Assembly: GCA_947184155.2 (NCBI GenBank)
Contig: CAMXCT020001546.1
Location: 352,001 to 416,000 of the forward strand
Length of the DNA stretch: 64,000 nucleotides
Direction: 5' to 3'
From: Cladocopium goreaui
Lineage: Eukaryota; Sar; Dinophyceae; Suessiales; Symbiodiniaceae
How positions within the stretch are numbered: position 1 is the first letter of the stretch; each line of letters starts with the position of its first letter. The notes under the pieces are model-generated. The model worked only from the letters and a program-made list of their open reading frames with translations. It was not told the origin of the DNA and made no database searches. The position numbers and the translations under genes are program-made. This document shows positions 8,151-44,497 of this stretch, piece by piece.

Positions 8151-8179
8151 TCTCGCTCTTCTTCTATTCTCCCAGAACA

Positions 8180-23130: not shown

Positions 23131-23157
23131 CAATGAGCTTGGCAAAGTTGTGGTGGT

Positions 23158-23190
<33 letters not shown>

Positions 23191-25039: not shown

Positions 25040-25161
25040 GGTGGGTGGTTCTGTTTTTTTTTTCGTTCTTACTTTGTTTGGTGTCTTTAAGTTTGATATT
25101 TGGAAAGTGTTAACAAGTTCGGGTGAAGTTGTTTATTTCTGTGTTGAGCTGAAATTCGCAG

Positions 25162-26530: not shown

Positions 26531-26690
26531 AGCTTTGTGGTTGTGGATGAGTTTTGTTTTGTTTTTCTTTTTTGTCGTTGTAACATATAGCTGATTTGCT
26601 GAATATGTCAGTTCTGTTGTTTTTTTTTCGGGGGGGGGGAATTTTGTTTGCTTGTTGTGTTCTCGTTGGTGGGTCTTCATGCAGCAGGTG

Positions 26691-28651: not shown

Positions 28652-28756
28652 CATTGCTGGCGGGGAGCTTTGTCAGCTGCCATGTAGCGTTGTTTAGATT
28701 TACCGGATGTCTTTGTTCGACATGGTCATCTTATTTCGACGGTATACTACACTGCG

Positions 28757-29024
28757 ACCTGACGTATGTTTCTCGCGGTAGGGACTGTCCGAGCGGGGAG
28801 CAGGCGTTGCGTCATGAAATTAGAGTTAGAAGATGTAAAACATGACCCAACGTATGTTTCTCGCGGTAGGGACTGTCCGAGCGGGGAGCAGGCATTGTAT
28901 CATGAAATTAGAGTTAGAAGATGTAAAACATGACCTGACGTATGTTTCTCGCAGTAGGGACTGTCCGAGCGGGGAGCAGGCGTTGCGTCATGAAGTTAGA
29001 GTTAGAACATGTAAAACATCTACC
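28757..29024 (+). repeat. 88-bp tandem repeat, three copies, each with a family-1 hairpin
   Basis: CGTATGTTTCTCGC recurs at 28763, 28851 and 28939. Hairpins at 28769-28800, 28857-28888 and 28945-28976 have arms TTTCTCGC/GCGGGGAG (complementary with G-U pairs) and core GGTAGGGACTGTCCGA (third copy AGTAGGG). Confidence 0.9.
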
Positions 29025-30180
29025 TGACTTCAAAGGCATCCCGTAAAACTGACATTAGATTAACACTGGAGCCGGCACGTTCGTTGACTGTCATCTCTCG
29101 ATCTCTGCACACAGCATTTACCTTGATGAAAAAGAGAAATGCACTTCGCTGTGAAGTTGACTGATGATCGACTTGCTGTGTCGTGTTGACAATGAAACTG
29201 ACCTGATGCTGGTTTCGCAGTGCAGTTGATGTATTTATATATAGCATGTGTATTGTTTGGATGTTCGCCATTCTTTGATAGACGTTGTTCGTGAAGCAGC
29301 AGTTGAGTCTTGAGCTTGTAGGTCATTCGCCAGAGGATGGTGCTTTCTTATCGCAAGCTTCGGAGTCGCGATCCCAGTCTCGAGCTTCAGCGAGCATGCT
29401 TTGTGTTGCTCCATGGGAATTCATTGTTTCACGTGCAGACCTTGTTGACCTCTTTGCTCCATAGATGTGAATCAAACATTCCGGGGCTCAGATGGCAGGA
29501 AATGGACAAGACAAGAGTGACGCATGGGGAAACAAAATACCATGCGGCATGAGCAAACAGTGTAGGCATGCTTGACAAGACACCCCCAACAGTTGTGGCA
29601 TTTTTCGAAATTTTTGAAGGGACCGTCCGTGAGATCTCAAGATTTGAAACTGCCCGATGATGTTCTCCAACATGTAGTCATTGGAAATTTGAGACATAGC
29701 CTTTCTCTTTTCAAGTGTGCCGCCATGTCGTTGGAGTCTGGATCTCTACACGGAACATTTACCTTGATGAAAAAGAGAAATACACTTTTCTGTGAAGTTT
29801 ATCGCCTTGCTGTGTTGTATGATCGACTTGCTGTGTCCTGTTGTCAAAAGGTTAACGTTTAGTGATGCCGAACTTTCATGTGCTCCAGGTGTGTTGCTTC
29901 CTTGCTGTTTGGCACTCAATGTTTTGTTATCAATTCTTTTGTGGACATGTCCATGATGATTGTTTTGTGCACAGAGTGAACATTCTTATTCCCATATGTA
30001 CGCTGAATGTTCGTGAAACAAGTGATGATCGGAACGCATGGTTTTTGACAATGAAAATGATCTGATGCTGGTTTCGCAGTGCGGTTGATGTATTTATATA
30101 TAGCATGTGTATTGTTTGCATGTTTGCCATTCTTTGATAGACGTTGTTCGGGAAGCAGCAGCTGAGTTTTGAGCTTGCAG
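29025..30180 (+). repeat. Repeat-rich intergenic region
   Basis: A 'TTTACCTTGATGAAAAAGAG' segment occurs at 29117 and 29760. A GTATTTATATATAGCATGTG segment occurs at 29228 and 30090. TTTGATAGACGTTGTTCGTG, a hairpin variant with arms CTTT/GAAG, occurs at about 29274 and 30134. No intact gene. Confidence 0.7.
29318..29640 (+). repeat. About 330-bp dispersed leader module, copy 1
   Basis: From GTAGGTCATTCGCCAGAGGA to a hairpin (29606-29639, core TGAAGGGACCGTCCGT). Copies also lie at 30178-30480 and 35928-36252. After the hairpin, copies 1 and 3 share sequence up to ATGTCGTTGGAG (29728 and 36336). In copy 3 this is the start of the kinase-like gene; in copy 1 the coding part is lost after a few codons. 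Confidence 0.85.
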
Positions 30181-30480
30181 GTCGTTCTCCAGAGGATGGT
30201 GTCTTCTTATCGCAAGCTCAGGAGTTGCGATCCCAGTCTCGAGCTTCACAGAGTATGTTTTGCGTTGGTCCATGCTAATTCACTGTTTCACGTTCAGACC
30301 ATGTTGACCTCTTTGCTCTATAGATGTGAATTGATCATTCCTTGTCTTAGATGTGAGCAAATGGACAAGACAAGAGTCACGCATGGGGAAACAAAATACC
30401 ATGCAGCATGAGCAAATAGTGTAGGCATGCTTGACAAGACACCCCAACGGTTCTGGCATTTCTCGAGATTTTTTGAGATT
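30178..30480 (+). repeat. About 330-bp dispersed leader module, copy 2
   Basis: Same order of words (CCAGAGGATGGTG, CGCAAGCTC, ATGGACAAGACAAGAGT, GTAGGCATGCTTGACAAGAC). Its hairpin region is degenerate and lacks the ACTGTCC core. Confidence 0.8.
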
Positions 30481-30827
30481 TCTGAACGTGGTTCGATCCT
30501 GTGCGGGCCGATCTTGATCTGCCGCCATTTTTAAGTCGGGACCTTGAAGGTTTCGTGACGCTGAAATTTCGCCTCCTTGAAGTATGCTCTTTCCGTGCCG
30601 TCTGGAACATGTGTTTGTTTTCTCAGATCGACGCGAAATGCTGAGGTGGCACTGGGATCATGGTTTTTTTCATGTGAAGGACCGTCAGAATTTGAAGCAA
30701 CTGTGTGCTGTTAGTGTCAAAATGTCATCATTTCGATTGAAAGAACAGTCGGGCCGATCGAATTCTTGGCATTTTTTGAGTTTCAACCTTGAAAACATTG
30801 CTGCCCCCCGGGGCTCAAGAAACTGTT
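30481..30827 (+). other. No gene recognised
   Basis: Unique-looking sequence; the frames on both strands are short. Confidence 0.4.
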
Positions 30828-30862
30828 CTCGAGGTTTTTGTAGGGCTTGTCCGTGAGACTTC
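30828..30862 (+). repeat. Family-1 hairpin immediately upstream of a small gene
   Basis: Arms CTCGAGGTTTT/GAGACTTCG (imperfect); core TGTAGGGCTTGTCCGT. It ends 10 nt before the ATG at 30873. Confidence 0.7.
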
Positions 30863-30872
30863 GTCACTCGCA

Positions 30873-31465
30873 ATGGTCTTATCAGAACTGCGGACGTGGG
30901 TAGGTCTGAGCGCTGCCGATGCGGTGAGCCTTTTCGAGGAACGTGTGGAGATCGAGCCACATTGGGGCGGTCGTTGGGGCTTGAAGCCGTCGGCGACGGA
31001 GGTGCGGACATGTAGTTCACAACGTGGTCCATTTTCAATTGTACGTCATGTTTGATAGTGTTCCTTGGGCATGTGAATGCAGGCCATTCTGCGAGCACAG
31101 CAAAGTGATCCAGCGGGTGCTTCTGCCAAGGAGTTGGAAGCACACGAAATTGTCTTCACACCCGTGGGTGTGTTGAATTTGGTGGTCTCTTAGCATTTGC
31201 TGCTTTTGGGTTGGGTGTTTGTTCGTGTTTGTTATTTGCCGTGTCATGTTTGTGATTGTAGCTTTTTGTGTTCTTTGATGTTTCATGATTGTTTTTCAGT
31301 TTTGTGCATTTTCGGATGTTGTCGTCTAAGGCTGAGGGCAAACTGTGGCAATTCGAGAACTTTCCGGGATACTTTCGATTGTTCGACAAGTTGTCTGCGG
31401 AGAAAGTGGGGCCGGACGGCACATTGTATTATACAGTGATGCCGACTGCGTATGCCATCCAGTGA
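30873..31465 (+). CDS. Small three-exon hypothetical protein
   Basis: Exons 30873-31001, 31083-31181 and 31331-31465 all join in phase 0 with GT-AG borders (GGAG|GTGCGG, TGCAG|GCC, TTTG|GTGGTC, CTAAG|GCTG). They give 120 residues beginning MVLSELRTWVGLSAADAV and ending TVMPTAYAIQ. No family is recognised; the central part is charged and helical, the end aromatic (WQFENFPGYFRLFDKL). A family-1 hairpin ends 10 nt upstream of the start, and another begins 12 nt after the stop. The second donor could instead be three bases later, which adds one Val. Confidence 0.5.
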
Positions 31466-31477
31466 TGTGGAGGGACA

Positions 31478-31505
31478 ACGTGCTGTAGGGTCTGTCCGTG
31501 CATGT
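31478..31505 (+). repeat. Family-1 hairpin 3' of the small gene
   Basis: Arms ACGTGC/GCATGT (one G-U); core TGTAGGGTCTGTCCGT. It lies 12 nt after the stop. A near-duplicate lies at 31574-31601 (core TGTAGGATTTGTCCGT), in a 96-bp direct repeat. Confidence 0.8.
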
Positions 31506-31573
31506 ATCCTTCTGCTTCTCGGGCCTCTGTGAGCCCATTTGTTTTTTTTGCCATGCAGTGATGTGGAGAGACA

Positions 31574-31601
31574 ACGTGCTGTAGGATTTGTCCGTGCATG
31601 T
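31574..31601 (+). repeat. Family-1 hairpin (duplicate)
   Basis: Arms ACGTGC/GCATGT; core TGTAGGATTTGTCCGT. Confidence 0.75.
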
Positions 31602-32437
31602 ATCCCTCTGCTTCACGGGTCTCTGTGAGGCCATTTGTTTTTCACCATCTGTTAACAACATGTGGAACTGTTGTTGGCGATGTGGACAATCCTGGACGTC
31701 ATGCGAGAGAAACACAGAGTTCTGCGAATTGATGCGCGGGACAGTATATAGGTTGTTTATCATCTGATGCGATTGGGAAAGTGACATCTTCCATTAGGCT
31801 TGATCAACAGGTGTCACACTTGAAGTTTTTACTTACAAATTGCATGTGCGTCTTTCGTTGCCATGTCTGTTGTTAATGTTTTTTGTCACAGTTTGTCTTT
31901 TGAAGGACTTGGCATTCTGCAGAGTCTTCTATGCTGCTGAGGGGATTTGAATGTGCGTGATGCTCGCTTACCTTGAACTCATGAAGATGACGGATGTAGT
32001 TTATAGCATCATGGTACCGGCTTTTGCTTGTTTTTGTTGGCAAACTGTGTGGGAAATCGTCTATTCAAATGAACAACATGTGGTTTTAGTTGGGAATTCA
32101 CGGTACCAGATTTCTTTGAAATGTGTTGCTTTGACGTGTTCATTGCAAGCTTCACTGTTCAGTTTGCAGGTCTCGGCGACAATCGTGCCCATGTCCAGTG
32201 TCAAACTTAGCAGTTGTGCTTCGAGTTTCGAAGTGCGAGTGCGTAGCCAAGTGTCAAACTCATGAATTGTTTTCAGTTTCGAAGTCCATGATGATGCAAC
32301 ACGGAACAAGCATAGTGCACCTCTTTACTTCTTTACCTCTTTTCTGGGCTCAGACGTGAACGGAAAGACAAGATGCATTGTGCACGGAGGAAACAAGTGA
32401 CGGTTGGCAAACAGTTATCTTTAACATTTCTTGCACT
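31602..32437 (+). other. Repeat debris, no gene
   Basis: Contains a GCATCATGGTACCGGC repeat (32006) and the CTATTCAAATGAA / AGTTTGCAGGTCTCGGCGAC module (32060-32300) known from 13.9-14.3 and 34.1-34.3 kb. Confidence 0.6.
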
Positions 32438-32475
32438 TCTCGAAGTTTCTGTAGGGGCTGTCCGTGAGATCTCGA
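32438..32475 (+). repeat. Family-1 hairpin, CTCGAG subclass
   Basis: Arms CTCGAAGTTTC/GAGATCTCGAG; core TGTAGGGGCTGTCCGT. First of two in the leader region of the J-domain gene. Confidence 0.8.
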
Positions 32476-32745
32476 GAATTGCATTTTGGTAATGTCAGTG
32501 TTTGTTTATTACGATGCAGTGGATCTATGTGATGTATAACACGAAAAATATATGTGATGTTTTCATTGAAATGCATGAGTAGTGGACAAAAAAAACATAT
32601 TACGGGAAGCATTGTAGCGTTCAATGTTGTACCGTTCAATTTTGTCAAAACGCATGAACAGTGAACAAAACAAATTATATGGGAATCATCGTACCGTTCA
32701 ATTTTGACGATCGGCCATTTTATATCTTGGACATTTGTTGCACTT

Positions 32746-32783
32746 CTCGAGGTTTCTGTAGGGGCTGTCCGTGAGATCTCGGG
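32746..32783 (+). repeat. Family-1 hairpin, CTCGAG subclass
   Basis: Arms CTCGAGGTTTC/GAGATCTCGGG; core TGTAGGGGCTGTCCGT. It ends 163 nt upstream of the J-domain gene start. Confidence 0.8.
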
Positions 32784-32946
32784 AATTGCATTGTGATGAT
32801 GTCAGGTTTTGGTTACGATGCCGTGGATCTATGTGATATATAGCACAAAAAAATATATGTGATGTTTTCATTCATTTCAATGCAGCAACAGTGGAAAAAA
32901 AGTACGGCAATCATTGCGTATTTAATTTTGTCTCGGCCGCGACTCA

Positions 32947-33789
32947 ATGGCCGCGTGGAGACCGCCGGAGGATGAGGAAGTGGCCTGGGTGTTGGAAGTT
33001 CTGGGCTGCAAGCGATCCCATATTGTGGACATGTCGGAGGATGAGTTCCGATACATTTTGAAGCCGCGGCGGAAGCAAGTTGCATTGGCACTGCATCCGG
33101 ACAAGCAAGACGATGAGAGAAGGATGATGGCGGAGGCTCAAATGAAACGCTGGAATGTGGCCTGGGAGAGACTGATGCGTAGTGTTCCGCGACAGTTCAA
33201 AGCAGCTGGTGTAGACGTCGTCCCGGCGCGAACTCAAGCTGCGCTGAATGCTCATCCTGGGATGTGGGAAGAGCCCTGGCGTGTTCCTCCTTTGTTGGTT
33301 CGGCAGTGGAGACGCAGAGGTGCAGGGCATCAGGAGTCTGAATCAGGAGATGGCGTTCCAAGTGGTTCGCAACAGCCTGGCGCGCAGTCTGCACAGGCAG
33401 GAACGGGTACCGGTGCTACTAGTTCGGATGGTGGTATGCCCAGTGCTTCAGCGGGCAAGGATCCAGAAGGTGATGCTGGCACTTCGCAGTCGGATTCGAC
33501 CAAGGCTTCGGAGCCTTGCACTGGTACGCCTCACTGTGTTGATTTTGATACTAGGCATGGTGCCGTTCCTGCTCAAAAATTGCTCGAATACAAGTTTTTG
33601 TATTCCGCACATGGAAAATGCGTTCAGTGCATGGATTACTACGCGAGGCAGCCCGGTCTTGATGTGACCTGTAAATCTTGCAACATGAATGCTCGCCAAT
33701 GGGCTGCCAGTTCCACGGGTAGCAGAAAGCGTACCACGGTACCTATCCCAGATGATGTGGAACGATGGCTGCAACGCCACAACTTGTGA
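32947..33789 (+). CDS. J-domain protein with C-terminal zinc-ribbon-like domain
   Basis: 280 residues from ATG 32947. Residues about 10-80 fit a DnaJ J-domain: WVLEVLGCKRSHIVDMSEDE, then LALHPDKQDD with the HPD triad at residues 50-52, and a last helix QMKRWNVAWERLM. J-domains stimulate Hsp70 ATPase. A Gly/Ser/Ala/Gln-rich disordered linker follows (residues about 115-190). The C-terminal about 85 residues contain CVQCMDYYARQPGLDVTCKS with a further C, i.e. C-x2-C-x13-C-x2-C, which suggests zinc binding, and end WLQRHNL. The next gene downstream (34790) has the same C-terminal domain. A 5'-truncated paralogue lies at 13771. Two 3' hairpins begin 35 nt after the stop. Confidence 0.75.
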   Translation: MAAWRPPEDEEVAWVLEVLGCKRSHIVDMSEDEFRYILKPRRKQVALALHPDKQDDERRMMAEAQMKRWNVAWERLMRSVPRQFKAAGVDVVPARTQAALNAHPGMWEEPWRVPPLLVRQWRRRGAGHQESESGDGVPSGSQQPGAQSAQAGTGTGATSSDGGMPSASAGKDPEGDAGTSQSDSTKASEPCTGTPHCVDFDTRHGAVPAQKLLEYKFLYSAHGKCVQCMDYYARQPGLDVTCKSCNMNARQWAASSTGSRKRTTVPIPDDVERWLQRHNL

Positions 33790-33824
33790 TAATGTGTATA
33801 TAGTTTGCTTCGATGGCCAACATT

Positions 33825-33863
33825 CCACTCGCATCTAAAGAGACTGTTCGTGATGCGTGGTGG
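33825..33863 (+). repeat. Family-1 hairpin 3' of the J-domain gene
   Basis: Arms CGCATC/GATGCG, extending to CCACT../..TGGTGG; core TAAAGAGACTGTTCGT. Inner stem GAG/TTC instead of GGG/TCC. Confidence 0.85.
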
Positions 33864-33935
33864 GTAACATAAGTGCCATTTTGAAAAGTTCAACTTGTGA
33901 GAATGTGTGTATAGTTTGTTTTGAGAGCAAACATT

Positions 33936-33974
33936 CCACCCGCATTTAAAGAGACTGTTCGTGATGCGTGGTGG
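33936..33974 (+). repeat. Family-1 hairpin (second copy, 111 bp downstream)
   Basis: Arms CCACCCGCATT/GATGCGTGGTGG; core TAAAGAGACTGTTCGT. Confidence 0.85.
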
Positions 33975-34473
33975 TTAGCGGAAGTGCCGTTTTGAAAAGT
34001 ACACTCGCGGTTGACCGTCATCCATGCAGTGATGTCATGCATTGAGATGCACTGTTATGATTTGTTCTGAGATTTCACCAGCATCAGGTCATTTTCATTG
34101 CACAACATGTGGTTTGATTCGGCGAGTCACGGTAACCGATTTTTTTGAAGTGTGTTGATTTGATGTGTTCATCGCCAGCTTCACTGTTCAGCAGTTTGCA
34201 GGTCTCTGCGACAATGGTGTCCATGCCCAGTGTCAAACTTAGCAATTGTGCTCTGAGTTTTGAAGTCGGAGAACGAATTCTTTGCATTGGATTGTGTTCT
34301 CAGTTTCTCTTGAACAAGACGAAACAAGCATAGTTTGTCTACGATGATGCAAGACGAAACAAGCTGCTCTTTGCCTCCTTACCACTTTCCTGGGCTCAGA
34401 CGTGAACGGAGAAACAAGATGCATGGCAGGAAACACGGTTGGCAAACAGATATCTTGAACATTTCTTGCTCTT
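33975..34473 (+). repeat. Intergenic repeat module
   Basis: Copy of the TGATTTGATGTGTTCAT / TTGCAGGTCTCTGCGACAAT module (34150-34290) and the TTTCCTGGGCTCAGACGTGA module (34389). No gene. Confidence 0.65.
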
Positions 34474-34511
34474 CTCGAGGTTTCTGTAGGGGCTGTCCGT
34501 GAGATCCCGAG
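34474..34511 (+). repeat. Family-1 hairpin, CTCGAG subclass
   Basis: Arms CTCGAGGTTTC/GAGATCCCGAG; core TGTAGGGGCTGTCCGT. It lies 278 nt upstream of the next start; the GTGGATCTATGTG and AAATGCATCAGCAGTGG words follow, as in the 15-16 kb introns. Confidence 0.8.
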
Positions 34512-34789
34512 AATTGCAAGTGGTAATATCAGTGTTTGTTTACGATGCAGTGGATCTATGTGATGTATAGCACGAAAAAAAAATGTGATGTTTTTGTTTT
34601 TCATTGAAATGCATCAGCAGTGGAGAAAAAAATATTACGGGAAGCATTGTACCGTTCAATTTTATACCGTTCAATTTTGTTGAAACGCATGAACAGTGAA
34701 CAATATAAAAATATATATTCAAATTGGTAGACGTTGTTCGGGGTGTGTGGTGGTGTAGTGTAACATTGTAGAAAAACTCGGTTCGCGAC

Positions 34790-35641
34790 ATGTCGAACCC
34801 CAGTGTTAACGTCCAAGATCAACAAAAAATTATCGAGTTCCTGCTTTTGAAGTATCAGAATTTGCTGTTGGAGCTTGGGGTGGTGCTCGATATAGAGGAC
34901 GTGTCCTTGGAAGTTGTCGAGAAAGCTGCCCGAGATGTCATGGCCTCTTATCCGCAGCCTCCGAGGGACGAGAGTGAAGAAGAACATTTGCGTGAACTGA
35001 AAGGATTATTGCTGGAGTTTGAAGATTGGAAGTTGTGTGATATTCGGGACAGACAGCACATGTTGATCTCAAGATTCAGAAATTTGCTTTTCAATTTGGG
35101 ATGCAACGACAAGACATGCAAGGAAGTTTCGTTGCCCTATTTGCAGAATGAGCTTGGGAATCTCGAATCGCGTGGTCATTCACTCCGATTTGTTTCGAAC
35201 TTGAAGTGCATTCTTCGGGACTTGAAAGCTTGGAGAATGCTATGTGAAGGCCGGCTCGGCGAGGAAATGGATGATGGTACCTTTTGGCGCAAAATGAGAT
35301 TTGCACCACCGTCTCCGAGCGATGAAGACTCGGATAGTGAAGGTCCGACACTGTGTCGCGACGCTCCACATTGCAATGACTTCGATGAGAACTATCCTCT
35401 GGGACATGGTATCTCGAAGAAAAGAAAGAAGACGATCACCGAGGAGAGACGGATGGAATACAAATTTCTCTTTGCGGCTGAGGCTCATTGTTTGAGGTGC
35501 CTGAAATATTATGCGGCGCAGCCAGACTTTGATGTCAATTGTGAGTCGTGCGGGAAAAATGCTCGGGGGTGGGCAGATTCGAACACGACTTACAACATTC
35601 CCACGGACATCGATGCGTGGCTCCGTGACAAGAATCTTTAG
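34790..35641 (+). CDS. Hypothetical protein sharing the zinc-ribbon-like C-terminus of the J-domain protein
   Basis: 283 residues from ATG 34790 (MSNPSVNVQDQQKIIEFLLL). The N-terminal about 165 residues are helical, Leu- and Glu-rich, and unrelated to a J-domain (no HPD). A short acidic Ser/Asp linker follows. The last about 95 residues repeat the neighbour's C-terminal domain: 'APHCNDFDENY', a short basic KKRKK patch, 'MEYKFLFAAEAHCLRC', then LKYYAAQPDFDVNCESC with identical C-x2-C-x13-C-x2-C spacing, and 'DIDAWLRDKNL'. This looks like domain shuffling onto a common C-terminal module. Two 3' hairpins follow, the first 12 nt after the stop. Confidence 0.75.
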   Translation: MSNPSVNVQDQQKIIEFLLLKYQNLLLELGVVLDIEDVSLEVVEKAARDVMASYPQPPRDESEEEHLRELKGLLLEFEDWKLCDIRDRQHMLISRFRNLLFNLGCNDKTCKEVSLPYLQNELGNLESRGHSLRFVSNLKCILRDLKAWRMLCEGRLGEEMDDGTFWRKMRFAPPSPSDEDSDSEGPTLCRDAPHCNDFDENYPLGHGISKKRKKTITEERRMEYKFLFAAEAHCLRCLKYYAAQPDFDVNCESCGKNARGWADSNTTYNIPTDIDAWLRDKNL

Positions 35642-35653
35642 AAGCGTTTCACA

Positions 35654-35683
35654 GTGACACTGTAGGAACTGTCCGTGTGTCAC
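35654..35683 (+). repeat. Family-1 hairpin 3' of the 34790 gene
   Basis: Arms GTGACAC/GTGTCAC (perfect); core TGTAGGAACTGTCCGT. Confidence 0.9.
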
Positions 35684-35698
35684 CTGAAGCCCATTGAA

Positions 35699-35730
35699 GG
35701 TGACATTGTAGGAACCGTCCGTGCGTCACC
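35699..35730 (+). repeat. Family-1 hairpin (second copy)
   Basis: Arms GGTGACAT/GCGTCACC (one mismatch, one G-U); core TGTAGGAACCGTCCGT. Confidence 0.85.
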
Positions 35731-35927
35731 TGAAGCTGCCCGGGATGTGATTCCCGTTTTGTGAGGAAAGGATGGCAGCTTTGTAGAGCGGAATCATACA
35801 CAGCGCATGTCATACAGGTGATCATGGTGCCGAGCTTTTCTGATGTACTTGCTTTGGCATGTCGTGGTAAGGGTAGTGTCACACGAGTCTTGTCAGGGTG
35901 AAGAAGCAGCAGTTGAGTCTTGAGCTT
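35731..35927 (+). other. Short intergenic segment
   Basis: Contains a GATCATGGTGCCGAGC repeat at 35820-35835. Confidence 0.6.
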
Positions 35928-36252
35928 GCAGGTCATTCTCCAGAGGATGGTGCTTCGTTATCGCAAGCTCCGGAGTCGCGATCCCAGTCTCGGGCTTCAG
36001 CGAGTATGCTTTGTGTTGCTCCATGGGAATTCATTGTTTCACGTACAGACCTTGTTGACCTCTTTGCTCCATAGATGTGAATCAAACATTCCTGGGCTCC
36101 GATGGCAGGCAATGGACAAGACAAGAGTCACGCATGAGGAAAGAAAATACCATGCAGCATGAGCAAATGGTGTAGGCATGCTTGACAAGACACCACCAAA
36201 CGGTTGTTGCATTTCTCGAGATTTCTGAAGGGACTGTCCGTGAGATCTCGAG
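35928..36252 (+). repeat. About 330-bp dispersed leader module, copy 3, with hairpin
   Basis: Same module as 29318. Its hairpin at 36215-36252 has arms CTCGAGATTTC/GAGATCTCGAG and core TGAAGGGACTGTCCGT. It lies directly upstream of the kinase-like gene. Confidence 0.85.
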
Positions 36253-36335
36253 ATTTGAAACTGACCGATGATGTTCTCAAACATGTAGTCATTGAAAATT
36301 TGAGACATAGCCTTTCTCTTTTCAAGTGTGCCGCT

Positions 36336-37286: not shown

Positions 37287-37424
37287 ATATATCTATATGT
37301 AAGGTTTTCTTTCTTTAATTCTATGTTGTTACGTTTTTTTCTGTACTTCTATTACTCAAGAACGAACAGGTTTCAACCGGGAGAGCCCAGAGAATGGACG
37401 AAGTTTCAAGAGGCTGTGTCAGCT

Positions 37425-38843
37425 ATGACCGTTGAGTTTCGAGCAGTTCGTCGGAGCAATTTTCCATACCCTTGGCACGAGGACAAACTTCCACGAACGC
37501 AGGCTGCTGGTGCTGCTTCCAGCTCTTCTTTTCATCCCAACGTCGCTAGATCTCCAGAGGTTGTTGTGCAAGAGGTTCCACCTCCGAGGGAGATCGACAC
37601 GTGGGGTGACACCATTTGTGTTGAACTTCTCCGGGAATCGCCGCTGGTGGTTTGCAAGGTTGAAATGAGTACTGCTAGAGGACGCCAAAGCACGGTGATG
37701 CTGCATTGTTTTGCATCTGAAGAGCCGACGCAATGGGCGGTTGTCATCTTGGCGGCGCCAAAAGAGCTTTTGATGGAGAAAGGACATGCGAACGTGGCGG
37801 TGTGCAAAAGACATGGTGAAACTAGACCTGAGAGCAAAAAACAGATCTCCGGCAGTTATTTGGTTATCACTGAATGTCTCCACCCGTCTTCGCGCATGGC
37901 TTCGTTTTTGTGGAACAAGATCACATCGGAGTGCTTCAATCCTTCACTGCAGCATTTTGCGCAGGAAGTGCTGGGTCGCATGGATTTGGACGTGTGGCAA
38001 AATGAAGTCATGAAACAAGGACTGCAAGACCTCGAAGACAAATTTGCGGTTCGACCAGGTCAGAAAGGTTTCTTTGCGAGGCCCACTCGAAAGAATGAGA
38101 CTTTGACTTTTGTGGAAAGACAGGAACAAGGCCACCTACCATTCGAACTTGACAAGAATAAGGAAGGAAAACGTCAAAGAAGAAAGGACAAATTGCCAGA
38201 CGGCGTTTCGGACCACAATGTTCACTCGGTCATGCAGGAGTTGCGTTGGAAACCGCTGGTTTTCGCTTTCATGTTATTTCCGTTGTTTTTCGATTTTAGA
38301 TTTGAATTTTTGGATATATGGCTGATGATTTTAATTGAAGTGTTTGACACCTGATGACTGGTGCTGCATGTGCAGGATTTGATGCGAACTATTCATTCTA
38401 TGTTGCCTCTGGAAAGAATTATTTGGGCCAACCGGGTGACGCCTTCTGGGAAAGTATTCTGTTGGGAAGCTACAAGTCAATGTGCCTACAACTTTGCGAC
38501 TTCAGATCGCCTCATTGCTTTGCTGAAGCACATGAAGGGCGAGTGGTTCTATCCCGGAGAGAAAGAAGAAGGGGGACGCATTCGCTATGGGATTCGCCCA
38601 GATTATCTCAACGACGTGATCGAAGGCGTTTGCTGTTGGATGCTTCCAAGAGCTGGGCCTTCTGTGCAGAATGAGGAGCATTGGCAAAAACACCTCTTAT
38701 TCCATGACTTCGAAATGACTGCACAGGAGATTAAGCAACTGGTTCGAGCAGCTGTGATCGTGACTTTGTTTCGATGGCAATGGATCACTTGTTGGATTGA
38801 AGTGAGAAAATCTGTGCGAGATGATGCGCGGGATGCGCTGTAG
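37425..38843 (+). CDS. Two-exon hypothetical protein
   Basis: Exon 1 37425-38258 (ATG at MTVEFRAVRRSNFPYPW; the open frame extends to an AG|G acceptor at 37369, so an upstream exon is possible) and exon 2 38376-38843 join in phase 0 across a 117-nt GT-AG intron (CCGCTG|GTTTTC, TGCAG|GATTTG). The product is about 433 residues. No known domain: the N-terminal half carries CVELLRESPLVVCKVEM and VMLHCFASEEPTQWAVVILA, a plausible beta-rich fold; a basic patch (KRQRRKDK) precedes the intron; the C-terminal part has WEATSQCAYNFATSDRLIAL and GIRPDYLND. It ends 38 nt before a family-1 hairpin. Confidence 0.55.
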
Positions 38844-39053
38844 TGCCATGTGTTTGTTGCCGTGTGCTTTTGCGTTCAGTACTCATTGCGGAAGGGACTG
38901 TCCGAGCAATGGGGAAATAACGCAGTTTCACTGGCATCGTCTGCACGATCGCGCTTCGCGGCTCTTGCTTCGAAAAAGACAGAGTTTAGTGGTTCATCTC
39001 TGTGCGAGGTGCATTGTCGTCAATCAAAATTTGATGTGAATGCATGTGTTTGA
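38816..39053 (+). repeat. About 237-bp 3'-flank repeat, copy 1
   Basis: From GCGAGATGATGCGCGGGATG to GTGAATGCATGTGTTTGA, nearly identical to 39775-40012. It overlaps the last codons of the upstream gene. Its hairpin at 38882-38912 has arms CTCATTGC/GCAATGGG (one G-U) and core GGAAGGGACTGTCCGA. Confidence 0.9.
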
Positions 39054-39384
39054 GACGCGGCATGCGGCACCGAGGATATCAGGGCGTGACGCTGCATGCC
39101 ACAGTTTGCCGAGATCTCACGGACAGGTGTCATCATGAACGGTTTGTTTTTGATTTGCTGTAGTGAAACTGTGAGTTTAGGCGTGTGGAGTTGTCATGTT
39201 GAACTGGAAGTTGACTGTAGACTTGTCTGTCGTTGGTTTGGGAAGAACTGTAAGCGGTAGAGTTCACAGTCTAGAGATCAGCATCGACATAGATTTGCAG
39301 TGAGTGTCAATCCACATGTAAGGCATCGGTGTCGCGAAGCCATTTTCTTTGCTGAGTCTGGGAAGCAATCTCGGTTTGAACTCA
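39054..39384 (+). other. Intergenic; half-hairpin on the minus strand
   Basis: Around 39109-39127 the minus strand reads CTGTCCGTGAGATCTCGG, the 3' half of a CTCGAG-class hairpin in reverse orientation. Nothing else was recognised. Confidence 0.5.
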
Positions 39385-39768
39385 ATGGAGGATAGTATTC
39401 GTCTGTGGATAGCTCTCGCCCCACCACAGATGGAGGAGCTGCGGACGCATCATAGAATCCAGCCAGACATCTTTACCTCCAGGATCGATTTGAGTGCGAC
39501 TCAAATGCCTCTTGGGCGTGCCACAGATGTTCAATGGTGTCACACTTACAACTACTTCGATTACAGCTTCCTCCAGGTAGAAATAACTGCTCTGGGTTAC
39601 TTTCGAAAGATGGAGGCAAATGTCTTGGAGAAGGTCCAACCTGGTGAGTTTCGTTGGTATGGATTTCTTGTTCCAGAAGAACGTGATGAGCACGGAAGAT
39701 TGCTCTATCAGATCATCGACCCCATGGTTGCTAATGAGCCGGTTCATGAGCGTCCTGCTAGGAACTGA
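39385..39768 (+). CDS. Hypothetical protein
   Basis: 127 residues from ATG 39385 (MEDSIRLWIALAPPQMEELR); the frame is open upstream to 39349, so it may be the last exon of a spliced gene. It has GYFRKMEANVLEKVQPGEFR and WYGFLVPEERDEHGRLLYQI, an alternating pattern that looks folded. No family is recognised. A family-1 hairpin follows 71 nt after the stop, within the 237-bp repeat. Confidence 0.45.
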   Translation: MEDSIRLWIALAPPQMEELRTHHRIQPDIFTSRIDLSATQMPLGRATDVQWCHTYNYFDYSFLQVEITALGYFRKMEANVLEKVQPGEFRWYGFLVPEERDEHGRLLYQIIDPMVANEPVHERPARN

Positions 39769-39774
39769 GGAATG

Positions 39775-40012
39775 CGAGATGATGCGCGGGATGCGCTGTA
39801 GTGCCACGTGTTTGTTGCCGTGTGCTTTTGCGTTCAGTACTCATTGCGGAAGGGACTGTCCGAGCAATGGGGAAATAACGCAGTTCCACTGGCATCGTCT
39901 GCACGATCGCGCTTCGCGGCTCTTGCTTCGAAAAAGACAGAGTTTAGTGGTTCATCTCTGTGCGAGGTGCATTGTCCTCAATCAAAATTTGATGTGAATG
40001 CATGTGTTTGAC
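39775..40012 (+). repeat. About 237-bp 3'-flank repeat, copy 2
   Basis: Near-identical to 38816-39053. Hairpin at 39840-39870 (arms CTCATTGC/GCAATGGG, core GGAAGGGACTGTCCGA). Both copies stay open in the frame MFVAVCFCVQYSLRKGL...; this is judged a by-product of recent duplication. Confidence 0.9.
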
Positions 40013-40205
40013 GGCGGAAGATGATGGCTCCGACATGGTTTTGGTTACGGAAAGAGTCTTCAAATTGCAATCGGAGGAACAGGTGAAAGCGATCATGGCC
40101 GAGCGTGCCGCCATCGCAGCTGTGCAGATGATTTCTTCGAAAAAAAGACACGCCGTCGACTTGGTTGAGGAAACGCCCTTGAAAGTGAAGGGTGCCAAGT
40201 GGTAG
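40002..40205 (+). CDS. Small acidic/charged hypothetical protein
   Basis: 67 residues from an ATG that lies in the end of the 237-bp repeat (MCLTAEDDGSDMVLVTERVF ... VEETPLKVKGAKW). It is helical and charged, with no known domain. It may be a last exon. A hairpin with arms GTGATGC/GCATCAC begins 34 nt after the stop, as for the other genes in the array. That is the main reason for calling it. Confidence 0.35.
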   Translation: MCLTAEDDGSDMVLVTERVFKLQSEEQVKAIMAERAAIAAVQMISSKKRHAVDLVEETPLKVKGAKW

Positions 40206-40239
40206 TTTTTTTTTGGCCAATGCAATATCATTGCTGACA

Positions 40240-40269
40240 GTGATGCTACAGGGACTGTCCGTGCATCAC
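40240..40269 (+). repeat. Family-1 hairpin 3' of the 40002 frame
   Basis: Arms GTGATGC/GCATCAC (perfect); core TACAGGGACTGTCCGT. Confidence 0.9.
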
Positions 40270-40377
40270 GCAGCGTGATTCTTTGCACCACGGCTTTTTT
40301 TTTTATTTCAACCAGCGTGGTATTTCTGGCTAGGAAAGATCCATGCTGTGGAGGGTCGCAGAAAGTGTGTTGCGTCC

Positions 40378-40560
40378 TGAAATGTCTGTTAAACACAGAA
40401 TTTTGACGGGCTTGATGCTTCAGGGACTGTCCGTGCATCGAGCGAAAAAGCAAGGCAAATGGTGCTATCCGTGCCATCATGATAAGCATTCGTTTGCGTG
40501 CTTTTGTTATTCTTTGTTTACAGTTTCACCGTACAGAGAAAGTCGTGCAACTGAGGTCAC
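40378..40560 (+). repeat. Dispersed 3'-flank module (copy at 41510-41690) with hairpin
   Basis: TCTGTTAAACACAGAATTTT to AAAGTCGTGCAACT recurs with small changes at 41510-41690. Hairpin 40410-40443: arms GCTTGATGC/GCATCGAGC (one G-U), core TTCAGGGACTGTCCGT. Confidence 0.85.
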
Positions 40561-40857
40561 AGAGCAGTGTGTTGCGTCCTCAAAAATGGGGCGATGCGAC
40601 TTTCTTTCAAAGGATGTCATCGACAGCATCATGGCATTCCACTGCAGCATGGCACCACTTTTGTAGAAGTATGCATAAATCAATGATATAACGTCTGTTT
40701 TTGACAGCATCATGGTACCGAGCTTTCTTTGGCTATTCACGCATAGGTTTGCCAGTGATTTGTTGATGGATGTTGCATTTCCGGCTTACATGTCCTAGAT
40801 TTGTCTTTTTTGCTTTTTGTTATTGCCCTGCCCTCGTTCCCTGTCTTTCCGTGCAAG
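40561..40857 (+). other. Intergenic; CATCATGGTACCGAG repeat
   Basis: A GCATCATGGTACCGAGC copy at 40707-40723; otherwise nothing. Confidence 0.6.
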
Positions 40858-41514
40858 ATGGAGCCGGCAGATGAACACGCGTCGCCGAACTTGGCGGAGA
40901 CACAGCCCATGTCGGTAGAGATTTGTTTTCGTTTGAGCATCTGGCCTCTCCAGCAGCTGAGTGCCCTTCCGGAGTTTCATTTTCTAGTCGACATGGACCC
41001 ACGGGATGCCAGTGTCGATCTCTTATACCAAGAGCATGTACTGCAGTGGATGACTGTGGTGGATTTACTGGGCGACTTGGTTGGTCGCATAGAAACGCAT
41101 CATGGAGGACGTTGTGACAAAAGATACATTTGCATCGCAGCGGAAGGTCATCGCCGATTCGCGGCTCGTGAGAGTTTGACTATTCTTCGTGAGCTTGCGG
41201 ATGAGAATTCTGTGGTCTCTCTTGTTGCTCGCCCTTCCAGCGTTGGTAAACAAATGCTGGCTCAATTCTGGCTTCCCAAGCTTGACGCAAAGCTGGCAGC
41301 TCCAGCGTTGGCCCGACTGGACTTGCATTGTTTCCAGGTGATTCTGGCTTGGATCTCACTTTGCGGGTGGTACAACCTATGCAGAGTGAATAGACAGTGG
41401 AGCCGCTGGCTTCGTGCAAACCCGACCTTTCGATCTGTGGTCTCGGATGCGCGTTGGGCCAAGGATCCCGAGTTGCTGGCCATCCAACGGGAGGTGCGAG
41501 CCAACGAGGAGTGA
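40858..41514 (+). CDS. Hypothetical protein, possible F-box-like C-terminal segment
   Basis: 218 residues from ATG 40858 (MEPADEHASPNLAETQPMSV); the open frame upstream is hydrophobic leader-like sequence and probably untranslated. Residues about 20-140 carry alternating hydrophobic strands (VEICFRLSIWPLQQLSALPE). Near residue 160, LDLHCFQVILAWISLCGWYN followed by LCRVNRQWSRWLRANPTFRS resembles an F-box helix set (L..L...IL.W..L......V.R.W). This is tentative. A family-1 hairpin begins 26 nt after the stop. Confidence 0.5.
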   Translation: MEPADEHASPNLAETQPMSVEICFRLSIWPLQQLSALPEFHFLVDMDPRDASVDLLYQEHVLQWMTVVDLLGDLVGRIETHHGGRCDKRYICIAAEGHRRFAARESLTILRELADENSVVSLVARPSSVGKQMLAQFWLPKLDAKLAAPALARLDLHCFQVILAWISLCGWYNLCRVNRQWSRWLRANPTFRSVVSDARWAKDPELLAIQREVRANEE

Positions 41515-41540
41515 TCTGTTAAACGCGGAATTTTTGACGG

Positions 41541-41574
41541 GCTCGATGCTACAGGGACTGTCCGTGCATCGAGC
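41541..41574 (+). repeat. Family-1 hairpin 3' of the 40858 gene
   Basis: Arms GCTCGATGC/GCATCGAGC (perfect 9 bp); core TACAGGGACTGTCCGT. The flanking module is shared with 40378-40560. Confidence 0.92.
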
Positions 41575-42134
41575 GAAATGCAATGAAAAGGATGTCTTCC
41601 GTGCCATCATGATAAGCATTCGTTTGCGCGCTTTTGTTATCCTTTGTTTACAGTTTCACCGTACAGAGAAAGTCGTGCAACTAAGGAAGGTCATCCACTG
41701 CATCGCGGTACCGAGCTTATTTGGTGAATTCTATGAGATTTTCGATATGAAAACTCGTGAACAGGTGAGATCATCGGCATTATGGTAAGGAGCATGTTTT
41801 TTCCGTATATGCTCGTACAGCAGTTTCTGTTACGCATGCCATGGAGGAGGGCTGGAAACAGCAGTGGTTCTACAGCATCATGGCATCGAGTTTTGGCTTG
41901 CAACTCAGTGTCCGACTTGGAAGTAAGTACTCAGCTAGATCTTAGCGCACCTCTGGTTGAAGGCATCGTTGCATGCTGTAACCGTAGATTAAAACAATGA
42001 TCTGTAGTTGTGTTTGCATTGTTGTCGTTCGCGTGGCTTGCGGATGAATGACCTGTAGTTGTGCATTGCGGATCTGTTAAATTGCTTGAGTCGTGTTCAA
42101 GGTAGGAAACGTTTGTTCGATCACAGTGGCAGCC
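41575..42134 (+). other. Intergenic region
   Basis: CATCGCGGTACCGAGC (41701) and GCATCATGGCATCGAG (41875) repeats. No gene recognised. Confidence 0.55.
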
Positions 42135-42866
42135 ATGACCACTAGCGCTCGTGAGTGGAGAGCGGCGCGCGAAGAAGATATCAGGAAGGCTTACGCCGAC
42201 AAAGAATGTTGGACTGACCTTGACCGCATTACCTGTTGGCACCCTTACTGTTTCGGGTCCATAGAGGAGTGGCCATTGGACGCTGCCGTGATCTGCAAAC
42301 CTACGGATCGAGCGTCGGTGCTGCTTGGCAGCATCAAAGCGGCCTGCAGCTTGGAAGACATTTGCCAGGCTCTGTCGGTGAAGGTCACCGTGGTGGTGAC
42401 CATGTGCGCAAATGAAATGAAGATTCGAGGCGCCCCAAAGGATTGGGCGCAGTATTTCCAGCAAGAAAATGTCTATCACGTCAAGTGTCATTTGGAAGAC
42501 ACGACATTGAAGCCGCCGCACCGTTGGGAGGAAAGAATCCCTGACTTGGTAGCTTCTTGTTTGGAACAGTGGAAAATTGTTTGTGGCCAACTCTGGAAAC
42601 AGTCCATGCTGGCAGTGACCAGGGGCGAATCCATGCACGTGCTCTTTCATTGCTTTGGAGGCATCAATCGAAGCGCTGGGGCTTTATGTGCTTGGCTCGT
42701 CGTGGGTTACAACTACCCTGCAGAGGATGCCGTCCAGTTGCTGCTTAAGAAAAGACCTTCCTTGCGCCCTTGGCACAATCGCCCCTATGTCTTGGAGGCT
42801 TTGTGGCAGCTGGAAGGTTTGCGGGCCGAGTGGCACATGGAACTGAGCGCGGCGTGCACAAATTGA
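42135..42866 (+). CDS. Dual-specificity-phosphatase-like protein
   Basis: 243 residues from ATG 42135 (MTTSAREWRAAREEDIRKAY). The signature HVLFHCFGGINRSAGALCAW contains the cysteine-phosphatase loop H-C-x5-R-S (Cys173, Arg179), with Ser after Arg as in dual-specificity phosphatases. A C-terminal helix (EDAVQLLLKKRPSLRPW) matches the usual 'A...v...Rp' that follows it. A candidate general acid is an Asp in HLEDT, about 35-45 residues before the Cys. Substrate unknown; it could instead be a related PTP-fold enzyme. A 3' hairpin begins 11 nt after the stop. Confidence 0.65.
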   Translation: MTTSAREWRAAREEDIRKAYADKECWTDLDRITCWHPYCFGSIEEWPLDAAVICKPTDRASVLLGSIKAACSLEDICQALSVKVTVVVTMCANEMKIRGAPKDWAQYFQQENVYHVKCHLEDTTLKPPHRWEERIPDLVASCLEQWKIVCGQLWKQSMLAVTRGESMHVLFHCFGGINRSAGALCAWLVVGYNYPAEDAVQLLLKKRPSLRPWHNRPYVLEALWQLEGLRAEWHMELSAACTN

Positions 42867-42877
42867 TTTGCACCACT

Positions 42878-42907
42878 GTTCGCCTGGAGAAACTGTTCGT
42901 GGCGAAC
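42878..42907 (+). repeat. Family-1 hairpin 3' of the phosphatase-like gene
   Basis: Arms GTTCGCC/GGCGAAC (perfect); core TGGAGAAACTGTTCGT, inner stem GAA/TTC. Confidence 0.92.
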
Positions 42908-43707
42908 GTGGTAGATCAGTAGCCAACTGTTGTTTGTCTGTAACAATTGTTCGATCCTGTAGGGACATCGAAGAAATGGAGTGCAACAGGTGTTATCTAT
43001 GCCATCATGCTATCGAACTTGTTTTTGTGGAATCATTCACTGCGTACACAAACGAATTTGCACCACTGTTCGCCTGAGGAAACTGTTCGTGGCGAACGTG
43101 TGACATGAGTAGCCAAGTGTTGCTTCTCTGTAAGTATTGTTCGATCCTGTAGTGACATCCGAGAAATGCAGTGAGCGAAAACTCGTCCAGGCCATCATGA
43201 TATCGAACTTGTTTTGTGCCCGGAATCATTCACTGCGTTCACTTGTTGTTTTTTGGATACCAATTTTTAAACATTTCCAATCCAAAGCTGTGTTTGCGCA
43301 CCTTTGTTTGGAAGTGAGGTCATACACGGCATCATGGTACCGGGCTTATTTGCTATGTCAAACTCCGGAGTCGTGTTTTCACGATGCGTTTCGCTGAATA
43401 GATGTGACGTTTGTAGGTCAAGCTGTGGTGGAAATATCGAAACCTTGCGCTTTCAACTAATACTTCTGTAGCCTGCATTAACAGCATGTCGCGCCTGGCA
43501 GCCGATTGCTTTACAGCTGCGGGGAGATTGCAATATACTTGTATTACATTCTGTTTTCAAATGAAGAAGCAAGAGATTGTACCCATTATGGGTCTTGGTG
43601 TTGAAGGATACCCGGCGGCAGCGCCCACATCGTTGGACATGACAGCAGTTAACAACAAACAAAATTTTGGTGCACAAACGTGTCGCATAAAGTATTTGGG
43701 GATTTAA
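42908..43707 (+). repeat. Intergenic repeat module (two copies) with further hairpins
   Basis: A segment of about 190 bp (AACTGTTCGTGGCGAACGTG, TAGCCAA, TTGTTCGATCCTGTAG, GCCATCATG) repeats at 42890-43065 and 43080-43240. Hairpin 43068-43097 has arms GTTCGCC/GGCGAAC and core TGAGGAAACTGTTCGT. A shortened relative TTCGAT-CCTGTAGGGAC-ATCGAA lies at 42950-42972. CATCATGGTACCGGG copy at 43329. No gene. Confidence 0.75.
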
Positions 43708-44274
43708 ATGTGGTCTGCCATGGCAGCGAATGCGGAGGGAATCCGTGCAAGGGCGGATGTCTTTGATGAACAAATTCTACGACACGTTCTTTCATTTGTG
43801 CCTGGGAGCTCTGAATTGGCTCCAAAATATTCTTTGCAACCAGAAACCGGACACTATCTGGTAAAAGCTGGTTGGCCAGTTGTTTTGAAGGAAATGGGTC
43901 ATTGGAAGGAGGCAGACACCACCATCTGTATTTGCTGCGGTGCCAACCAAGAACCCGGCGATCCAAACGAGTCAGACGATAGCTGGACATCTCAGCAAAT
44001 CTCTGCTGGCTGTGCAAAGATCATGACCGTGACAATACCACACTTTCGTCATCATCATCTGAAATATATCAAAAAAACAGTCAGAAGCATAGAACATGTT
44101 TGGAGGACAATGGCAGCCGAGAGATGTTACATCTGCGGGCACTGCAACGACTGCGTTGTGAATCTCGAGTATGAGCATCCTGCTGACTGGCTGGAAGATC
44201 TTTCTGCGTTCACAGAGATGCTGGAACTTAGGTCGTGTCCGTGGAGGTGCCCAGATAAAGATCGACCGCAGTAG
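43708..44274 (+). CDS. Cys-rich hypothetical protein
   Basis: 188 residues from ATG 43708; a second ATG lies four codons later. It begins MWSAMAANAEGIRARADVFD. The segment VFDEQILRHVLSFVPGSSEL is F-box-like (helix plus 'LSFVP'), then a central TTICICCGANQEPG and a later ERCYICGHCNDC. The Cys pairs (CICC and C-x2-C-x2-C) could bind zinc. No family is recognised. A pair of hairpins begins 148 nt after the stop. Confidence 0.45.
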   Translation: MWSAMAANAEGIRARADVFDEQILRHVLSFVPGSSELAPKYSLQPETGHYLVKAGWPVVLKEMGHWKEADTTICICCGANQEPGDPNESDDSWTSQQISAGCAKIMTVTIPHFRHHHLKYIKKTVRSIEHVWRTMAAERCYICGHCNDCVVNLEYEHPADWLEDLSAFTEMLELRSCPWRCPDKDRPQ

Positions 44275-44422
44275 CCGGATTGCTGCAGTAGTAAAAGCGG
44301 CAAACATGCCACATCTGCAGCATCATGGTACCGACCTTTGCTTGGACGCAGCTTGTGGGAGCTGGAAGGCTTGCGTACCGAGTGGCACTGAGTGCAACTG
44401 GCGCAAATTAATCTGTAGCACT

Positions 44423-44452
44423 GTTCGTCTGGAGAGACTGTTCGTGACGAAC
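44423..44452 (+). repeat. Family-1 hairpin 3' of the 43708 gene
   Basis: Arms GTTCGTC/GACGAAC (perfect); core TGGAGAGACTGTTCGT. Confidence 0.9.
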
Positions 44453-44467
44453 ATGCAAAACCAGTAT

Positions 44468-44497
44468 GTTCGTCTGGAGAGACTGTTCGTGACGAAC
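44468..44497 (+). repeat. Family-1 hairpin (tandem 45-bp duplicate)
   Basis: Identical arms GTTCGTC/GACGAAC and core TGGAGAGACTGTTCGT, 45 bp downstream of the previous copy. Confidence 0.9.

Follow-up and report, generated by a model that had tools for sequence, protein, structure and literature searches.

The iron-responsive element (IRE), the selenocysteine insertion sequence (SECIS), the histone stem-loop and the Roquin constitutive decay element (CDE) are built to a common plan, in which a constant tip sits on variable paired arms at an untranslated region (UTR) site common to many mRNAs. Integron attC cassettes, each a gene with a hairpin, lie in one direction, and it is the structure of the hairpin rather than its sequence that is kept. 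Here we analyze hairpins with a constant core and locus-specific arms in a 64-kb stretch of the genome of the dinoflagellate Cladocopium goreaui (C1546:352001-416000, hereafter the window), where they lie within a giant Helitron2/Helentron-like transposon and may form a family of cis-acting RNA stem-loops. Helitrons transpose the plus strand and capture gene fragments; maize elements reach up to 39 kb, and full-length captured genes are described as exceptionally rare (PMC6431247). Helitron2 elements have TC...CTRR ends and asymmetric inverted repeats, and the Rep motif of Helentrons carries an S (PMC4067079). The 3' hairpin of Helraiser keeps ~90% activity with a foreign stem, while a changed loop behaves like a deletion (PMC4778049).

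The open reading frames (ORFs) among which the hairpins lie were taken for an accessory array in an earlier, sequence-only reading of the window. They are the cargo of a Helitron2/Helentron-like rolling-circle transposon of ~37 kb, as follows from the boundaries of its copies, its TC...CTRR ends, its asymmetric terminal inverted repeats and its Rep domain. Elements of this class would also have a Pif1-type helicase and be inserted between T and T without duplication. Homology to the copies on contigs C2024 and C748 spans window positions 7621-7625 to 45051-45053, with unrelated DNA beyond, and the termini read TCCCGAGAGCG... at the 5' end and ...CGCTCTCGGGCCAACCGTCGTCTAG at the 3' end, with an outer T flanking the ends that were read. 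TCCCGAG...CTAG ends with unrelated flanks were found for the 5' end in the window, L039 and L041, and for the 3' end in the window, L040 and L042. The Rep motif, ETQGRGSLHPH, has the S given for Helentrons (PMC4067079). An element of this design was not found described in the titles and abstract openings of the literature searched, which left most subscription journals uncovered, and IMG/VR held no locus for either the exact 17-mer core or the helicase protein, in a search from which records of the same genome may be omitted.

Each hairpin consists, from 5' to 3', of a left arm, XNNA, GRR, NCTG, TYC, GY and a right arm. An alignment (A1) and a covariance model (R1) were built from 13 hairpins, 12 of the window and 1 of locus L005. 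R1 matched the window 36 times at E<0.002 (43 to 20.8 bits, E 2.3e-10 to 0.0017), all on the plus strand between 13580 and 44499, a result that is partly by construction since the model was made from these hairpins; one further match had an E of 1.1. Three further sets comprise 35 distinct sequences drawn from the best 150 of 180 R1 matches (model-selected), 60 distinct sequences chosen by the core alone with no condition on the arms (core-selected), and 14 arm families (69 distinct sequences) selected for paired arms, two of which look like chance matches. The X.Y position is mostly T.T or G.A (29 and 5 of the 35 distinct sequences); among core-selected sequences with at least 5 of 7 arm pairs it is T.T in 46, G.A in 5, G.T in 2 and A.A in 1.

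That the core is constant while the arms are locus-specific and complementary, and that pairing rather than arm sequence is kept, had both been proposed from the sequence, and both hold up. Across the 13 arm types of A1, 92.3% of cells are standard pairs against 60.8% in shuffles, 55 cells are changed on both sides against 17.5, and the covariation score is 0.917 against 0.240 (0.117-0.249 with one strand slid). When arms were swapped among 11 families, own arms paired at 87 of 99 positions, a figure that none of 100,000 permutations reached (best 79). The model-selected sequences give a covariation score of 0.890 against 0.230, with further pair types not above shuffles (37 against 35.7, 188/500), and 52 of the 60 core-selected sequences pair at 6 or 7 of the 7 inner arm positions. 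The inner stem covaries as well: pair 15-22 goes from G-C to A-T, pair 16-21 is G.T or A-T, and the third inner pair is G.T in 32 of 35 distinct model-selected sequences. Compensation also occurs between copies of related gene ends, where type J/K hairpins have C-G, T.G and T-A at one pair. Among the 98 pair columns within the 14 arm families, 6 show double changes, 9 other standard-pair changes and 12 at least one break. Some type I copies are mismatched at their second pair (e.g. L020, L044, L048, L053), which speaks against a strict constraint in every copy.

Many of the window hairpins are tandem duplicates, and the window has about a dozen independent arm types. Each unit of the tandem repeats (45-190 bp) at 28762, 31453, 33780, 42852 and 44422 carries one hairpin, so that five 3' types are doubled or tripled; the type F hairpin is likewise doubled. 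Rfam 15 gave no match at gathering score in the 64-kb window, and its only match at E<=10 in 40200-41700 was RyhB (E 9.2), within an ORF and away from the hairpins.

On the sense strand, G.T pairs stand to A.C pairs at 9:2 in the 11 families, 26:2 in the model-selected and 53:9 in the core-selected sequences; therefore it is the sense strand that folds. This excess speaks against a role as a double-stranded palindrome, or upkeep by template switching, as sole causes. Under RNA parameters, 8 of 10 hairpins folded with the two stems in register (extra pairs in two of them), against 4 of 10 under DNA parameters, as we read the structures. The G.T-rich types C and A have z-scores of -3.03 and -3.43 as RNA and +0.26 and -1.02 as DNA. 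Together with the tie to stop codons described below, this comparison favors RNA as the folding molecule.

Hairpins are enriched behind stop codons. The ten that the sequence-only reading had placed there are at those places; adding stop 20874 gives 11 gene ends, all chosen with knowledge of the hairpins and one of them (28651) the end of the helicase rather than of a cargo gene. By a 34-nt definition of the hairpin, the first one begins 16, 117, 10, 38, 11, 38, 71, 33, 27, 10 and 147 nt behind these ends, in order of position. Placing hairpin clusters at random between genes never, in 200,000 trials, put all 11 within 150 nt or gave as small a sum, with gene ends that remain hairpin-aware. 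We therefore also counted mechanically. A hairpin starts at most 150 nt behind the stop of 9 of 30, 8 of 17 and 6 of 15 plus-strand ORFs of at least 100, 150 and 200 codons, against 15.3% of random positions and 4 of 25, 2 of 11 and 0 of 4 minus-strand ORFs. The earlier statement that a hairpin follows nearly every gene hence depends on the gene models: it is true of all 11 chosen ends and, mechanically, of 8 of 17 long plus-strand ORFs. Stops 31465 and 40205 are, in our reading, the ends of short last exons, which for 40205 is supported by a 272-codon ORF ending ..EETPLKVRSAKW in L046.

AAAA[GC] is the poly(A) signal of Amphidinium, whose gene arrays have 3' UTRs of 42-143 nt (PMC2488372). 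The 60 nt that follow the hairpin contain it in 6 of 11 families, against 10.7% at random positions, and the 100 nt that follow contain it in 7 of 11, against 17.4%, a suggestive link to polyadenylation that we do not use as main evidence because 4 of 11 families lack the signal. Another motif of constant sequence, GCATCATGGTACCGAGCTT, frequently with a T-rich tail, is found at 19 places (<=4 mismatches) between 18159 and 44763, all on the plus strand, all within the element and often behind hairpins; it and the hairpins may be parts of one 3' signal. The spliced-leader sequence had no match in the window, nor did a piece of it in 62 loci.

Genome-wide (1.166 Gb, 6202 contigs), the exact 14-mer AGGGACTGTCCGTG occurs at 182 places against 6 for its reversed control, a degenerate 34-place T.T pattern at 702 against 28, and a G.A pattern at 63 against 7; these are not independent events, because most matches are copies of a few arm types. 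We fetched 38 exact-core loci, representing 37 distinct places, and all share element sequence over 29-100% of 3 kb. Another 14 were picked from the 100 listed of the 182 places; the arms are paired in 13, all of them relatives of the element, and unpaired in L061, where the DNA is unrelated. Thus 50 of the 51 distinct places sampled lie in relatives of one Helitron family, and no R1 hairpin (E<0.002) was found in the 26.6 kb of the window outside the element. This speaks against a general element of host genes, which the sequence-only reading had allowed for, within a sampling that was baited with the element's own core and would miss host hairpins with another core. Among 100 listed places of the T.T pattern we read two as having unpaired arms (C109:55779, 3/7; C369:538234, 1/7). 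One G.A-pattern place, on contig C463, has paired arms (21.9 bits) in DNA without similarity to the window; we regard it as a chance match, although a hairpin outside the element could also explain it. Within each of the loci scanned, all confident hairpins are on the same strand.

In some of the other elements, arm type and distance appear to stay with the gene, although the picture is mixed. Type I follows genes that end in ..VRANEE or ..VRANDE (in one case ..VRADEE) at a distance of 26-27 nt, which holds for 4 of 6 and 4 of 10 places in two locus sets, and at the remaining type I places there is no such ORF end or the hairpins are second copies. Type J lies 10 nt behind a phosphatase-like gene in L044 and L048, and in L043 a long frame runs through it. 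Type H lies 33 and 31 nt behind ..KVRSAKW or ..KVKSAKW in L046 and L059, but not in L044 and L048, and type E lies 38 nt behind a DnaJ-like end in L047. A new gene in L046 has new arms, 43 nt behind its 224-codon ORF. Locus L048 (C798:32001-42000) combines several gene-hairpin units with the 3' end of the element, and nothing in it resembles the window's RepHel part; it is perhaps a shortened, non-autonomous copy that kept gene-hairpin units.

Conservation was measured over nine diverged loci (L009, L011, L026, L027, L037, L020, L001, L002 and L006), with the close loci L010, L012 and L019 dropped. Hairpin I2 differs at 2 of 204 positions (1.0%), against 5.8% in the preceding gene and 12.3% in the spacer 41701-42134. 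Because the six loci covering I2 were fetched by a 14-mer inside it, only 20 of its 34 positions were free to differ, and over these the count is 2/120 (1.7%). Third codon positions differ at 8.5% in one gene, against 4.2 and 4.6% at the other two, and at 6.7% in the other gene, against 6.3 and 3.6%.

The reading we lean to, with a little less than even confidence, is that the hairpins are a family of cis-acting RNA stem-loops specific to a single family of giant Helitron2/Helentron-like transposons. Cargo-gene transcripts would typically have one within ~150 nt downstream of the stop codon of the finished gene, and often a further one in the leader or an intron. The constant part, composed of the X.Y mismatch, a two-base bulge, A.G, a three-pair stem and the NCTG loop, would be the recognition site; the arms would need only to pair and hold this site up, so that each gene could have drifted to its own arm sequence. 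A putative RNA-binding protein, of the element or of the host, would read the site, and a common transcript fate would follow, be it 3'-end formation, stability, export or translation. A broader version, in which the transposon has built a regulon from an RNA tag with a fixed tip, free arms and one factor, or in which the tags double as single-stranded DNA (ssDNA) signals of rolling-circle replication, seems to us rather doubtful.

Several observations weigh against an RNA element of gene ends. Fewer than 6 of 7 arm positions pair in 8 of the 60 core-selected sequences, and 9 of the 17 plus-strand ORFs of at least 150 codons have no hairpin behind their stop. These nine fall in 17245-19495, 21284-26054 (RepHel) and 36336-38354, stretches that, on an unproven reading, are exons of longer genes. 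Fifteen of the 36 window hairpins are not behind a gene: 13 are of type A or M, upstream of genes or in probable introns, one is at a start codon (14848) and one is inside an ORF (23824). The type A/M hairpins at 32748, 34476 and 36217 lie 199, 314 and 119 nt before an ATG, and others fall, in our reading, within probable introns of a SAP-like gene. Where hairpins are behind stops, their position fits the earlier proposal of a 3' UTR element; the 3' flank is not the whole rule, because hairpins also occur upstream of genes. In the second locus set, 6 of the 10 type I places have no such gene end at 26-27 nt. RNA folding missed the inner stem of J and K, of which DNA folding recovered that of J. 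Hairpin J, which was not baited, differs at 5.2% and is no better conserved than its gene (5.7%; spacer behind J, 11.6%). Lastly, the sense strand is here also the transposed strand, since Helitrons transpose the plus strand, so strand bias cannot separate RNA from ssDNA.

A rival account gives the hairpins a role in the displaced ssDNA during rolling-circle transposition of this very long element, as sites for Rep/helicase or single-strand-binding protein, as priming sites for the second strand, or as remnants of terminators from a stepwise capture of genes. Coding DNA would be kept free of such hairpins, leaving them intergenic. The window copies are all inside the Helitron and all on the plus strand, hairpins of one locus share a strand, and some lie upstream of genes and probably in introns, as this account would have it. 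The Helraiser 3' hairpin, which tolerates a foreign stem and not a changed loop, has the same design of constant tip and free arms (PMC4778049). Yet an ssDNA role gives no reason for closeness behind stops rather than anywhere between genes, and folding as DNA is poor for two G.T-rich types. Of the 36 hairpins, 1 has CTRRT in the 30 nt behind it, against a background of 4.5% per place, and the hairpins are therefore not 3' ends; the element's own last 60 nt have no special fold (z 0.10). We consider this role unlikely.

It is improbable that the hairpins are short mobile units that spread themselves, or palindromes perfected by template switching, with no function in the transcript. Many copies are in tandem, and arm type A repeats together with its surroundings, as such spreading would produce. 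Template switching or selection for cruciforms should treat both strands alike, yet G.T exceeds A.C; arm types often stay with genes, and the inner stem covaries too. The sequence-only reading had entertained a mobile hairpin that prefers 3' flanks, which the confinement of sampled copies to Helitron relatives disfavors, and no hairpin-sized empty site or target duplication was met, none having been sought systematically. Quite improbable, too, is that one ancestral gene end was duplicated and its constancy is ancestry only: J and K, I1 and I2, and G1 and G2 do share flanks, but arms that differ between types have stayed complementary, as the permutation of arms attests. Very improbable, finally, is that gene and hairpin form a mobile cassette recombined at the folded hairpin, since although genes and hairpins run in one direction and gene content differs between elements, none of three rearrangements (the deletion at 40871, the L047 fusion and the duplication 44357-44756) is at a hairpin core, their breaks being inside genes or beside hairpins, and a Pfam scan of 20 element ORFs, without a targeted integrase search, recognized no recombinase or integrase.

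Other candidates were rejected. A stimulator of stop-codon readthrough fails because the distances of 10-147 nt are too variable and the 76-codon frame that stays open behind the stop in L043-L045 ends, as we read it, after 23 codons in the window. Loop-loop dimers of the near-palindromic GGGACTGTCC would pair poorly in the GAGACTGTTC and GAAACTGTTC types, and it is the intramolecular register that covaries. Kink-turn and loop-E motifs do not fit in their positions.

Table 1. Features of the window, in window coordinates. Hairpin coordinates and stop distances follow the 34-nt definition.
Feature	Position	Strand	Evidence or remark
Giant Helitron2/Helentron-like element (TC...CTAG)	7625..45051	+	Homology of C2024 and C748 copies ends here, flanks unrelated; contains all window hairpins
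5' terminal repeat CCCGAGAGCG	7626..7635	+	Read at element end
Insertion in window copy, 4.4 kb	8169..12543		Absent from both copies compared (L039, L041)
Other type A hairpins	13580, 14537, 15578, 16104, 16623, 18379, 18549, 30830, 32441, 34476	+	23.9-38.5 bits
Hairpin P, at ATG of short ORF	14848..14881	+	29.5 bits; relatives in L005, L007, L048
Hairpin B1, 16 nt after stop 20874	20890..20923	+	39.9 bits
Hairpins B2, B3	21042-21075, 21130-21163	+	37.7, 38.0 bits
Rep part of RepHel, Helitron_like_N, motif ETQGRGSLHPH	21954..23336	+	PF14214 at 21954-23333, E 6.5e-14, 53 bits, cut-off 28.9
Weak hairpin within ORF 23358-24263	23824..23857	+	22.0 bits, E 7.5e-4
Pif1-like helicase part	26708..28651	+	PF05970 at 26708-28648, E 3.6e-4, 20.6 bits, below cut-off 25.9 (weak)
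Hairpin C1, 117 nt after stop 28651	28768..28801	+	37.8 bits
Hairpins C2, C3 (88-bp tandem with C1)	28856-28889, 28944-28977	+	37.8, 35.5 bits
Hairpin D1, 10 nt after stop 31465; D2	31475..31508; 31571-31604	+	34.7, 26.3 bits
Type A hairpin, 199 nt before ATG 32947	32748..32781	+	Type A range 23.9-38.5 bits
Cargo gene, weak DnaJ similarity	32947..33789	+	E 0.0073, below cut-off
Hairpin E1, 38 nt after stop 33789; E2	33827..33860; 33938-33971	+	38.3, 29.5 bits
Cargo gene, Cys-rich end (our reading)	34790..35641	+	11 relatives, 39-89% identity, besides own cluster
Hairpin F1, 11 nt after stop 35641; F2	35652..35685; 35698-35731	+	41.1, 25.3 bits
Type M hairpin, 119 nt before ATG 36336; another	36217..36250; 29606	+	42.1, 20.8 bits
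Cargo gene, several exons (introns are our reading)	36336..38843	+	ORFs; no Pfam match
Hairpin G1, 38 nt after stop 38843	38881..38914	+	39.6 bits
Hairpin G2, 71 nt after stop 39768	39839..39872	+	39.6 bits
Hairpin H, 33 nt after stop 40205	40238..40271	+	39.1 bits
Hairpin I1, second behind stop 40205, within reading frame 40343-40666	40410..40443	+	37.7 bits
Cargo gene; in window copy a fusion of two L044 genes	40858..41514	+	ORF list, L044 comparison
Hairpin I2, 27 nt after stop 41514	41541..41574	+	43.0 bits
Cargo gene, dual-specificity phosphatase-like	42135..42866	+	PF00782, E 9.8e-8, 32.3 bits, below cut-off 33.5
Hairpin J1, 10 nt after stop 42866; J2	42876..42909; 43066-43099	+	39.5, 32.9 bits
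Last cargo gene	43708..44274	+	ORF list; no family match
Hairpin K1, 147 nt after stop 44274; K2	44421..44454; 44466-44499	+	42.2, 41.9 bits
3' subterminal repeat CGCTCTCGGG, asymmetric partner of 5' repeat	45027..45036	+	11 nt before CTAG, 15 nt before 3' end

Among the cargo genes (Table 1), the product of 34790..35641 has two relatives, of the 11, at 50 and 47% identity over the full length. We take the motifs of the 36336..38843 product to be kinase-like and the end of the 40858..41514 product to be F-box-like. In L044, a gene that we call Q (6701-7700) has its own hairpin, which overlaps its last codons; the window copy has a deletion there (40871), so that the first codons of Q are fused to the next gene. 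In L047 (5700-7755), a kinase-like gene is joined to the end of the DnaJ-like gene with hairpin E. Judged from these junctions, cargo genes appear to recombine within coding sequence. Hairpin P, at the start codon of a short ORF that we read as SAP-like, has relatives at position 2307 of L005, 2302 of L007 and 2228 of L048; one pair differs between L005 and the window (T-A against G-C). This hairpin could control translation. A duplication of 400 bp (44357-44756) lies in the element, and large plus-strand ORFs at 44706-54346 and 60720-62750 read as a DIRS-like reverse transcriptase and a tyrosine recombinase, without Pfam support.

A family of ~37-kb elements thus carries a row of ORFs, one with relatives ~50% identical over the full length, and a structured signal repeated along that row. 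If the signal acts in RNA, it offers a handle on how a mobile element expresses a set of genes; in the case of ssDNA, it would reveal how rolling-circle elements of such great length are replicated. The element resembles Helitron2/Helentron transposons in its asymmetric inverted repeats and in the S and T flanks of its Rep motif, and differs in its hairpins, the accessible text on those transposons describing no internal hairpin set behind cargo genes (PMC4067079). The right terminal sequence (RTS) of Helraiser offers a hairpin in the same transposon class, with a loop that matters and an exchangeable stem; it is one hairpin 11 nt from a CTAG end, whereas the hairpins here number in the dozens, lie at a distance from the ends and are not followed by CTRR (PMC4778049). 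Unlike what integron attC cassettes would lead one to expect, the three rearrangements examined here are away from the hairpin, and no integrase was recognized among the scanned ORFs. With the IRE, SECIS, histone stem-loop and Roquin CDE, the hairpins would share the design of tip, arms, UTR site and many mRNAs, and they realize it with a different core.

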